This document shows positions 12,911-15,336 of a stretch of DNA of 64,000 nucleotides, piece by piece (within the stretch, counting starts at the first letter, position 1; each line of letters starts with the position of its first letter). Below the pieces are notes generated by a model. The model was not told where the DNA came from and did no database searches. It saw nothing but the letters and a program-made list of their open reading frames with translations. Source of the stretch: an uncultured Kiloniellaceae bacterium (GTDB lineage Bacteria; Pseudomonadota; Alphaproteobacteria; Kiloniellales; Kiloniellaceae); contig CANLSF010000005.1 of NCBI GenBank assembly GCA_947493695.1, forward strand, positions 372,001-436,000. Direction: 5' to 3'. The position numbers were made by a program, and so were the translations under genes.

Positions 12911-13753
12911 TCAGGGCGGCGGCATATCGTCAGGCACAAAGAAATCAGGCATCAGTTCGTCGTCAGGGACATCGGCATAACCGGAAAGATCGGTAATCCC
13001 GGCGGAGGCTAAAATCAGATCATCAAGGCAGAAGTTGCCGGTAAACTCCCGCGACGGCCGGGTCAGGATGATATGTGCCGCATCCGACAGGATCTCGACT
13101 TTCCGGCATCGCCGCATTGCCTCGTCACCGCCCAGAACGTTCTGAACTGCTGCCGTCCGGATTGCTGTCCTCGGCCAGAGCGCATTGAAGGCAATACCGT
13201 CTTTTCTAAATTCTTCCGCCATGCCCAGAACGCACATGGACATCCCGAATTTTGCCATGGTGTATGCGACGTGTCCGCCGAACCATTTCGGCTTCATATC
13301 CAAAGGTGGCGACAAATTCAGCACATGCGGGTTTTCCGCATTTTTAAGATGCGGAATACAGGTTTTGGAAACCAGAAAGGTGCCGCGGGTATTTATCCCG
13401 TGCATCAGATCGTAACGCTTCATATCGGTTTCGAGCGTCGGGGTCAGTTGAATGGCGCTGGCATTGTTGATGCAGATGTCCAGGCCGCCAAAGGTCTCGA
13501 CTGTCTTTGCAACAGCTGCCTGAACCTGCTCTTCGTAGCGGATATCGCAGATTACAGGTAGCGCACGCCCGCCGGCAGCCTCCACCTCTTCAGCCGCAGT
13601 GTAGATTGTGCCTTCAAGCTTGGGGTGCGGCTCAGCCGTCTTCGCGGCAATTGCCACATTGGCGCCGTCCTGAGCCGCCCGTTTTGCGATCGCAAGGCCG
13701 ATCCCTCGCGAAGCTCCGGAGATAAAAAGCGTTTTTCCCGACAGATCCGACAT
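12911..13753 (-). CDS. Short-chain dehydrogenase, HSDL2-type
   Basis: NAD(P)-dependent oxidoreductase of 280 aa. The cofactor motif GASRGIG lies near the N-terminus, INNASAIQLTPT matches the NNAG region, and the catalytic YxxxK appears as VAYTMAKFG. The long insert AKTAEPHPKLEGTIYTAAEEV and HVLNLSPPLDMKPKWF are hallmarks of hydroxysteroid dehydrogenase-like protein 2. Start at 13753 has GGAAGGGAAGG upstream. It follows the nitrile hydratase-like genes by 105 bp on the same strand and may be co-transcribed. Human HSDL2 carries an SCP2 domain; here a separate SCP2 gene lies 3 kb away (16632-16934). Confidence 0.88.
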   Translation of the reverse strand: MSDLSGKTLFISGASRGIGLAIAKRAAQDGANVAIAAKTAEPHPKLEGTIYTAAEEVEAAGGRALPVICDIRYEEQVQAAVAKTVETFGGLDICINNASAIQLTPTLETDMKRYDLMHGINTRGTFLVSKTCIPHLKNAENPHVLNLSPPLDMKPKWFGGHVAYTMAKFGMSMCVLGMAEEFRKDGIAFNALWPRTAIRTAAVQNVLGGDEAMRRCRKVEILSDAAHIILTRPSREFTGNFCLDDLILASAGITDLSGYADVPDDELMPDFFVPDDMPPP

Positions 13754-13858
13754 TGGCCTTCCCTTCCGATCACGGCACGGCATCATCAACGATGAACTGC
13801 AATATGGACCTGTTTTAAGCACCTGTCGATCAATCAGGATTTTGCGACAGGATCAGCC

Positions 13859-14518
13859 TCATGCAGATTTAGGCAGCGCCGTTCCAATCATGCAATCGCG
13901 TGTGACCAGATCCGCAAGCGCCTCTTCATCCAGGTCACCGGTGCCCGAGGGACGCGCGGGGAGAACCATGTAACGCAGGTCCGCGGTACTGTCATGTACC
14001 CGTACCTCTACATCAACCGGGATCTGCGTCCCGAACTCCTTCAGGACAGCCCTTGGTTCACGTACCACGCGGCTGCGATAGGCCCGCGCCTTGTACCAGT
14101 CGGGTGGTAAGCCAATCAGCGAACGCGGATAGCAGGAGCAGAGGGTACAGACGATCACGTTGTGGACAGCCGTCGTGTTTTCGACCGCCCTGATGGGAAT
14201 AGCACCCGCATCAATCCCGAGTTCTCCTGCCGCCGAGATGACATCCTCGAGCATACGGGCTTTAAACGCAGGATCGACCCAGGCCCGCGCGATCAGACGC
14301 GCTCCAAACACAGGCGATTTTGAATCGATGACTTCGATCGTCGAGCGAAGCTCTTCAGCTGTGATGACCTTTTTCCCAACCAGCAGCTCGATAACCGCTT
14401 CCGTCATGACCTGATAATAGCTGTAGTCGCCATCTTCCAGATCCGGCTGGAAAGGATGCCGATGACCATGGGCGTGGTCATGGTCGTGATGATGCCCATT
14501 GTCCTGCATATCAGACAT
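13859..14518 (-). CDS. Nitrile hydratase alpha / thiocyanate hydrolase gamma-type subunit (cobalt type)
   Basis: Metal-bearing catalytic subunit, 219 aa. The metal site VCTLCSCYP lies at residues 123-131 (Cys124, Cys127, Cys129); Thr in C-T-L-C-S-C marks the cobalt type, whereas iron enzymes have Ser there. LPPDWYKARAYRSRVVREPRAVLKEFG follows as in the family. The N-terminus has an unusual His/Asp-rich run at residues 8-21 (HHHDHDHAHGHRH), perhaps for metal capture. The ATG at 14518 overlaps the preceding gene by 8 nt and has AGGAG upstream. With the two half-beta genes it forms a three-subunit enzyme hydrating a nitrile or thiocyanate-like substrate. Confidence 0.93.
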   Translation of the reverse strand: MSDMQDNGHHHDHDHAHGHRHPFQPDLEDGDYSYYQVMTEAVIELLVGKKVITAEELRSTIEVIDSKSPVFGARLIARAWVDPAFKARMLEDVISAAGELGIDAGAIPIRAVENTTAVHNVIVCTLCSCYPRSLIGLPPDWYKARAYRSRVVREPRAVLKEFGTQIPVDVEVRVHDSTADLRYMVLPARPSGTGDLDEEALADLVTRDCMIGTALPKSA

Positions 14519-14840
14519 GCTCTCGCGCTCCTGTTTCCGCTGTTTGTGACAGAGTTTCAGCGTCCTGTAACCAATGCTCGTAGATGTCCACGACGGTGGT
14601 GTCCTCTGCGCTTCCCTCATAGTCGGGCCAGAGGTCGCACTGCAAAAACGTGACGCGAAAAAGCGTGCGCGCAGGCAGGCCGTCGCGCCCGTAGGCAAGC
14701 TCTTCCGGATTGGGAAAGTCACCGACTATATCTGTCACAATCCCGGTCTTGCCGCGAACAAAGAACGGCGTCCGGACGTGACCAGGCGGGAATGCGCGCG
14801 TGACGCTCACCCTGGCGCCGATCGGAAAACGAGGGCTCAT
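14511..14840 (-). CDS. Nitrile hydratase beta subunit, C-terminal half (separate polypeptide)
   Basis: A 109-aa protein corresponding to the SH3-like C-terminal domain of nitrile hydratase beta: MSPRFPIGARVSVTRAFPPGHVRTPFFVRGKTG, later LFRVTFLQCDLWPDYEG and VVDIYEHWLQ. It is the equivalent of the thiocyanate hydrolase alpha subunit. Its ATG overlaps the stop of the N-terminal-half gene as ATGA, and its end overlaps the alpha-type gene by 8 nt, indicating stoichiometric co-translation. Both halves are intact with their own starts, so this is a genuine split, not a frameshift. Confidence 0.9.
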   Translation of the reverse strand: MSPRFPIGARVSVTRAFPPGHVRTPFFVRGKTGIVTDIVGDFPNPEELAYGRDGLPARTLFRVTFLQCDLWPDYEGSAEDTTVVDIYEHWLQDAETLSQTAETGAREHV

Positions 14841-15187
14841 TTCACCCCCTCATTCTGCGTCTCGTTCTTGGCCGCACGGTCCGCATCCCATCGCGCTTCC
14901 ACGTCCGCCATCTTCAGGCCAAGTTCGTCAATGTTCAGCACGCCCTTCTCGATCAGGTTATTGGTGATCGATGCGATCCATCGCTCGTAGTACGACATTT
15001 CGTCATACGCGCCCGGCCCCAGATCCTCGATCCCCCGGCGCAGCTCGTCGACAGTAATGAGACGCCGTTCGGGTCCGGATAAAAGACGCAGCACCGCATC
15101 GACCCGCTTCTCCCAGGGCGCAAAATCATGTTCGTTCTGAACCACCGGGCCGGCGTCGAGCCCTCCCATGTCATGGTGTCGTCTCAT
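14837..15187 (-). CDS. Nitrile hydratase beta subunit, N-terminal half (separate polypeptide)
   Basis: A 116-aa protein matching the N-terminal helical half of nitrile hydratase beta: MRRHHDMGGLDAGPV parallels the usual N-terminus (HDMGG...GPV), followed by EKRVDAVLRLL and YYERWIASITNNLIEKGVLNIDEL. It corresponds to the thiocyanate hydrolase beta subunit. The start at 15187 is preceded by AAGGAAGGTG. First gene of the operon; gene order (N-half, C-half, metal subunit) equals that of thiocyanate hydrolase scnB-scnA-scnC. No activator/cobalt chaperone gene is seen next to it. Confidence 0.9.
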   Translation of the reverse strand: MRRHHDMGGLDAGPVVQNEHDFAPWEKRVDAVLRLLSGPERRLITVDELRRGIEDLGPGAYDEMSYYERWIASITNNLIEKGVLNIDELGLKMADVEARWDADRAAKNETQNEGVK

Positions 15188-15336
15188 CACCTTCCTTCTT
15201 TCGTTTTTTGCTTTGATCGGTCGTGGCACTGCCAGGGACTAAGGACAGGAATCTTATCAGGCCGATGCGTGAGCGAAAACCGCGCGTTGATCACAGCTTC
15301 GACAAGACTTCAGCCCCTCCAGCCTTTGCCGGAGAG

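Follow-up and report, generated by a model that had tools for sequence, protein, structure and literature searches.

A locus of three overlapping genes in the genome of an uncultured Kiloniellaceae bacterium raises the question of whether its product is a nitrile hydratase (NHase), a thiocyanate hydrolase (SCNase) or an enzyme apart from both, and of how such an enzyme acquires its metal. The locus lies in a stretch of 64,000 nucleotides that was analysed as a whole, hereafter the window, and its features are collected in Table 1. An earlier note, made from the letters of the window alone, had described three intact, overlapping genes with the beta subunit encoded as two open reading frames (ORFs), and a cobalt-type metal site. 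The ORFs, together with the Pfam and TIGR matches to the two halves of beta, confirm the gene structure: betaN and betaC overlap by 4 nt (ATGA) and betaC and alpha by 8 nt, and a GTG upstream at 15229 offers betaN an alternative start that would give 130 aa. All three Pfam domains score above their curated cut-offs and the CxLCSC motif is present, which places the enzyme in the NHase superfamily. The motif, in the form CTLCSC, is invariant in both the 22-row and the 38-row alignment and supports the cobalt-type site. The product of the locus is a cobalt member of the nitrile hydratase family in which two proteins make up the second subunit.

Table 1. Coordinates of the features discussed, numbered from the first nucleotide of the window.
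Feature	Position	Strand	Details
betaN gene, N-half of NHase beta subunit	14837..15187	-	116 aa; PF21006 E 1e-18, 67.9 bits (cut-off 21.5); TIGR03888 positions 1-102
betaC gene, C-half of NHase beta subunit	14511..14840	-	109 aa; PF02211 E 1.9e-16, 60.8 bits (cut-off 27.7); TIGR03888 positions 136-226
alpha gene, metal subunit	13859..14518	-	219 aa; PF02979 E 2e-75, 252.6 bits (cut-off 27.2)
Metal-binding motif CTLCSC	14132..14149	-	alpha residues 124-129, from translation
alpha Arg132 codon	14123..14125	-	equivalent of SCNase gammaArg136 and P. thermophila NHase alphaTrp116
His/Asp-rich N-terminal run of alpha	14456..14494	-	residues 9-21
SDR family oxidoreductase, PRK08278 type	12911..13822	-	PF00106 E 1.2e-31; NF006133 461.9 bits (cut-off 250)

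Alpha narrowly misses the cut-off of the NHase equivalog TIGR01323 (243.2 bits, cut-off 249.85) and falls far below that of the SCNase equivalog TIGR03887 (204.5 bits, cut-off 291.45). The AlphaFold2 model of alpha (pLDDT 88.5, pTM 0.79; pLDDT <50 across residues 7-20, the region of the His/Asp run) matched 39 chains in Foldseek at E <= 0.001, exclusively NHases and SCNases. Because the TM-scores by query length are 0.79 to 3qxe and 0.81 to 2dd4_C, fold does not decide between the two. The window locus encodes a real, intact enzyme of a known superfamily, from a broad, apparently uncharacterised part of it.

The enzyme was compared with a collection of 135 loci, comprising the window, three further loci from its own genome, 38 found with betaN as query in 143 related genomes, 13 on named plasmids and 80 out of an alpha-alignment scan of 84,980 species genomes, from which the best 80 of 592 matched stretches were kept, a sample skewed to the window's kind. 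An alpha gene is present in 133 of these loci (L086 and L091 are without one), which were sorted into 12 classical loci (an activator adjoins 11 of them; L099 has none within its retrieved stretch), two SCNase-like loci and the other 119, window included, here called group R. These R loci are partly non-independent, since L130/L131 and L078/L179 carry identical alphas. Group R extends over Proteobacteria, Actinomycetota, Cyanobacteria, Chloroflexota, Binatota, Rokubacteria and SAR324, several of them represented by single MAG contigs. Nearer to the window, betaN is matched at E 1e-16 or better in 36 of the 143 related genomes (own genome counted), with identities in Alphaproteobacteria from 82% downwards, and its occurrence is patchy: in G002 and G003, which are congeners, there are weaker matches only. 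Among the open-licence papers searched, we recognised none that deals with group R and found no activity report for any R-type enzyme.

Two concatenated trees of alpha, betaN and betaC separate group R from the classical NHases. In tree 1 (79 rows, 375 columns; 130 loci thinned by an identity cut, plus PDB 2dd4), the classical NHases occupy one branch (100/100, length 0.84), the window falls in a nine-row subgroup of R (99/90), and SCNase sits on a long branch inside R (100/100, length 1.34). Tree 2 (76 rows: 44 R, 13 of 26 Streptomyces-type loci described below, 16 classical and 3 SCNase) keeps the window in R, in an eight-row subgroup (96/87) outside classical NHase, places SCNase again inside R on a long branch (1.39), and puts the Streptomyces type among the classical NHases (classical plus Streptomyces 100/99, length 0.64). 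For this eight-row subgroup, which was named for the tree 2 tests after the first tree had been seen, both union with the Streptomyces type (AU p 1.5e-68) and union with classical plus Streptomyces (AU p 0.0013) are rejected; the placement among classical NHases that the earlier note had weighed against its own reading is thus not what the data give. Some R rows (Binatota, Rokubacteria, Rubrobacter) lie nearest the classical side (98/93 and 98/86, tree 2), and the single-gene alpha tree does not resolve the deep branching order. Because no outgroup fixed the root, R, which is what lies across the well-supported branch from the classical NHases, may be either a clade or a grade. The trees suggest, but do not show, that SCNase is nested in R as a long offshoot, since the tree 1 data do not reject a clade of R that leaves SCNase out (p 0.158).

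How the enzyme is loaded with metal was examined through a search for activators. An activator profile, A2, was built from 11 activators and searched in 34 genomes: 19 R-only genomes, in which the only full-length NHase alpha is R-type (G033, G054 and G134 also have short partial alpha-like matches), and 15 controls with signs of a classical locus. Of the R-only loci, 18 of 19 are in the layout set and that of G042 was assigned by its betaN match; 15 of the 19 genomes reach 90% completeness or more, with contamination no higher than 5%. Many of the genomes searched are drafts or MAGs, with completeness known for the 34-genome set and five later ones. The earlier observation that no activator adjoins the locus proved an understatement: none lies beside the genes within the window, and the profile found none in any of the 19 R-only genomes, where the sole match was, by position, the genome's own betaN (17.6-31.8 bits), compared with an activator in 15/15 controls (62.6-165.8 bits). 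A sixteenth control with a classical locus, G060, has an activator at 112.5 bits. G085, G088, G116 and G124, with several R-type-like loci of which not every alpha was typed, yielded 0/4, the only match being their own betaN (at most 32.0 bits). Thirty-three further genomes, reached via 33 of the 80 scan loci (best 80 of 592 matches), were covered by the activator profile only. In 28 of them there was only the own betaN (22, by position arithmetic) or no match (6); G161, G166 and G172 have a match of at least 49 bits, G150 has one other match, its Streptomyces-type betaN (L192) at 33.2 bits, and G175 one other at 28.6 bits.

The choice of profile matters to these counts. PF21006 alone is less sensitive than the activator profile, having missed the activators of G001 and G025, and the profile used for layout calling had absorbed betaN sequences, such that the betaN of five Streptomyces loci was labelled as activator and was treated as betaN in the tree. 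Against the activator profile, R-type betaN has no scoring advantage over its classical counterpart. Going by these genomes, group R seems to load its metal without a dedicated activator.

The window's own genome (6.46 Mb, 20 contigs) complicates this reading, as it holds four NHase alpha loci, all of which except the window locus come with an activator. Two others, C2 and C3, are classical alpha-beta-activator loci; the third, C1 (L005:8256-9925), has a split beta in the order alpha-betaN-betaC-activator and groups with the classical NHases. L090 has this last order too, as do a Gloeocapsopsis plasmid (L095) and an Aminobacter MSH1 plasmid (L097). The search for a distant activator that the earlier note had proposed has two answers: three activators (122.9-165.8 bits) are present in this genome, each beside another NHase locus, and none is present in the 19 R-only genomes. 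With three activators at hand, help in trans is possible in this strain, and the enzyme could function as an ordinary NHase, with one of the three maturing its alpha. We consider this unlikely, though it is the strongest of the competing accounts: all 19 R-only genomes do without an activator, and among them are relatives with up to 77% betaN identity (G004).

A precedent for maturation of this kind exists in Streptomyces. One study describes the S. canus enzyme ScNHase (AnhD-AnhE-AnhA) as a cobalt-type enzyme with the order betaN-betaC-alpha, no activator and subunits of 10.41, 11.35 and 21.33 kDa, and reports its betaN-like AnhD to be a metal and self-subunit-swapping chaperone (PMC7329996). 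We searched 295 Streptomyces genomes with PF21006, obtained a match in 55 and examined the best 30 loci (L180-L209), of which 26 have the order betaN-betaC-alpha (L184-L209) and 4 are classical. Among the 25 of the 26 for which sizes were taken, several (e.g. L186, L199, L202) are near 10.4, 11.5 and 21.4 kDa, depending on the start chosen, and ScNHase was matched to these loci by genus, layout and size and is represented in the tree through them. The classical Streptomyces NHases L180, L182 and L183 have an unusual ICTLCSCFPW motif and a very long branch (1.59).

ScNHase and the window enzyme share gene order, cobalt type and the lack of an activator in the cluster. They differ in that the ScNHase-like loci (13 of the 26 being in the tree) stand on the classical side, and that the position of alpha Arg132, Arg in the window, is filled in the 26 loci by Leu (14), Ile (7) or Val (5). 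In tree 2, three-part, activator-free enzymes are accordingly placed at two positions, R and the Streptomyces type. Because the ScNHase-like enzymes lie on the classical side, the likeness between window and ScNHase would be either convergent or ancestral, and for the same reason the chaperone role is carried over to the window by analogy. The toyocamycin nitrile hydratase ToyJKL, described as having three subunits like the window enzyme (PMC12648386), probably belongs with the Streptomyces type and not with the window; it was placed via a review rather than its own sequence, the review having S. canus share a branch with S. rimosus (PMC13243292).

With a probability of about 0.55, we favour a single alpha-betaN-betaC cobalt hydratase that has no dedicated activator, uses betaN as chaperone and acts on a small polar or charged nitrile. 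More specifically, alpha would bind cobalt via CTLCSC, with the cysteines presumably oxidised as in other members, and betaN and betaC would supply conserved arginines. Free betaN, an activator homologue, would pair with alpha before final assembly to load the metal and swap it in, in the manner of AnhD, so that betaN probably doubles as structural subunit and metal/swapping chaperone. The enzyme would then add water to the C-N triple bond of its substrate, which we expect to be a nitrile rather than thiocyanate.

The choice of substrate depends on the pocket. The two-subunit cobalt NHases (PDB 3qxe, 1v29) share with the window enzyme the fold, CTLCSC, the conserved betaN/betaC arginines and often a His-rich N-terminus, and differ from it in a fused beta, an activator, Trp at the Arg132 position and Gln at alpha 105. 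The Arg132 position is occupied in the 119 sampled R alphas by Arg (111), Lys (4), Ile (2), Val (1) and Trp (1), in 12/12 classical alphas by Trp and in 2/2 SCNase relatives by Arg. Reciprocal mutants at this position have been deposited (3vyg, SCNase R136W; 3vyh, NHase alphaW116R). At alpha 105, Gln is found in 9/12 classical enzymes, and Gly in the window and 73/116 sampled R. The arginines betaN Arg50 and betaC Arg23 are invariant (116/116 R, 12/12 classical, 3/3 SCNase rows). BetaN Arg51 is Arg in 104/116 sampled R and His in 9/12 classical enzymes, and betaN Arg69 is Arg in 112/116 sampled R and 4/12 classical; both arginines are shared with SCNase. By these residues, the window pocket looks more basic than the classical NHase pocket, which suits, in our view, a polar or anionic substrate.

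SCNase gammaArg136 and betaArg90 are, we assume, the pair that controls substrate choice in SCNase, and the window enzyme has the equivalent of the first and lacks that of the second: betaArg90 aligns with window betaN Leu49, Leu in 89/116 sampled R and Arg in 3/3 SCNase rows. Since alpha Arg132, betaN Arg51 and betaN Arg69 are common to SCNase, thiocyanate is a less probable but conceivable substrate, and the enzyme could be SCNase-like, converting SCN- to carbonyl sulfide and ammonia with a pocket arginine in place of the NHase tryptophan. The nesting of SCNase within R in both concatenated trees and the absence of an amidase among the annotated neighbours agree with this account. The Thiobacillus thioparus SCNase (PDB 2dd4) likewise shares with the window the split beta, these arginines and a place in R, but it differs in its long branch and in betaArg90.

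Several observations make us rate a thiocyanate-hydrolysing enzyme somewhat lower still than maturation in trans. Besides the Leu49 replacement and the TIGR03887 score, window and SCNase lie in separate parts of R in both concatenated trees, and a single clade of window subgroup and SCNase is rejected on the tree 2 data (AU p 0.0045) but not on the tree 1 data (AU p 0.139). Moreover, the SCNase cluster includes an activator according to a review (PMC7193024), as do the clusters of the two relatives L052 and L093, whereas the window cluster has none. In these two loci (Roseomonas and Azospirillum), a single gene encodes a fused beta, and an activator-like gene comes next. The likeness to SCNase first proposed for this locus thus holds for a layout unlike that of two-gene NHase and is not supported as kinship with SCNase as such, in view of the separate positions in R, the low equivalog score and the presence of one of two pocket arginines.

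The gene neighbourhood was also considered. An SDR gene lies 36 nt downstream of alpha on the same strand and is perhaps co-transcribed with the NHase genes; among annotated neighbours, the one other locus with this SDR type after alpha is the nearest relative, L055. The gene upstream of betaN has no family match. Annotated neighbours of R loci vary, and include M24 peptidases, GCS2, RNA methyltransferase, ClpP, acyl-CoA dehydrogenases, an AMP-binding ligase, enoyl-CoA hydratase, ABC transporter parts and SDRs. When the neighbours of the 119 sampled R loci were clustered, the top clusters were mostly antisense shadow ORFs of the NHase genes, and the largest same-strand cluster directly beside R genes was acyl-CoA dehydrogenase (7 loci, 4 adjacent: L101 and L106 annotated, L105 and L107 by cluster). 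ABC transporter genes adjoin R genes in L080 (annotated) and in L082 and L085 (by shared clusters), and aquaporin and cobalt transporter genes in L050 and L053. We found no widely recurring partner gene among the neighbours of R loci, and operon partners were dropped as a clue to the substrate, as they differ among relatives.

Individual loci have further neighbours. L082 also has PEP mutase/isocitrate lyase-family and isochorismatase genes, and the classical C2 locus of the window's own genome (L007) adjoins genes of the same clusters as L080, L082 and L085. On a Planktothrix agardhii plasmid (L049), betaN-betaC-alpha lies directly downstream of an asparagine synthase gene, maybe in a biosynthetic cluster. 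On an Agrobacterium plasmid (L050), betaC-alpha-betaN is followed by aquaporin, DUF302, CbtB and CbtA genes.

The first reading of the locus had offered the His run of alpha as a possible replacement for a metallochaperone, that is, a His-rich N-terminus acting as a built-in device that makes an activator unnecessary. We counted His in the densest 15-residue stretch before the alpha core and took at least 3 as a run. By this measure, a run is present in 112/119 sampled R alphas, somewhat more often than in classical alphas (8/12), and this difference is what speaks for the idea. The run is also found in 2/2 SCNase-like alphas, and all four alphas of the window's own genome have a His-rich N-terminal stretch; among the alphas sampled, it is common in all branches and is not special to the window enzyme. 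Five R alphas, all from MAGs (L126, L144, L151, L155, L160), have 0-1 His and no activator match in their genomes, and because these His-poor relatives are also activator-free, the run does not by itself explain the missing activator. In addition, metal insertion into the Monosiga enzyme does not require its (His)17 run, according to a review (PMC7193024). The proposal is weakened to the point where we regard it as improbable.

A frameshift or assembly error as the cause of the split beta, a result that the earlier note had named as fatal to its reading, can be dismissed, because the halves are separate in 116/116 sampled R loci with both halves (window included; the sample includes the best 80 of 592 scan matches) and overlap by 4 or 8 nt in 80/106 betaN-betaC-alpha loci. 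In the 119 sampled R loci, which again include the best 80 of 592 scan matches, betaN-betaC-alpha occurs as separate ORFs in 106, the variant order betaC-alpha-betaN in 8, a doubled betaN with betaC-alpha in 2, and alpha alone at a contig end in 3; a fused beta occurs in 0/116. With a mechanical choice of start, the betaN stop and the nearest in-frame betaC start overlap by 4 nt in 61/106 loci and by 8 nt in 19/106. The variant order is that of L050, L051, L054, L146, L150, L158, L168 and L169, of which L150 has an extra distant betaN-like gene. Doubled betaN genes at L083, L176, L089 and L092 are possible intermediates between a betaN subunit and a dedicated activator.

To examine the origin of activators, we built a joint tree from activators and betaN domains (93 rows, 101 columns, long branches). 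The 15 classical activators in this tree fall close to classical betaN. SCNase betaN forms a group with the two SCNase-side activators (99/90), which stay on the R side when SCNase betaN is left out. Neither a position of the SCNase-side activators on the classical side (p 0.149) nor one origin for all activators (AU p 0.118) is rejected. We hypothesize, tentatively and at well under even odds, that R keeps the original design of the superfamily, with beta as two proteins and betaN as subunit and chaperone in one, and that activators arose by duplication of betaN, perhaps twice, in the classical NHases and in the SCNases.

Six NHase gene layouts are given in a 2020 review, betaN-betaC-alpha without activator not being among them, and the review states that nearly every cluster includes an activator, which is indispensable outside eukaryotes (PMC7193024). 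Group R is widespread and does not fit this picture. What is already known, from the ScNHase study (PMC7329996), is the parallel in Streptomyces for both the layout and the activator-free maturation. What is new, as judged from sequence comparison, is that the window's group stands apart from the Streptomyces type, is widely spread, is activator-free in the genomes searched and shows a more basic pocket. Group R provides natural activator-free enzymes in which non-corrin cobalt loading and the origin of activators can be tested, and such enzymes might be easier to express for amide production.
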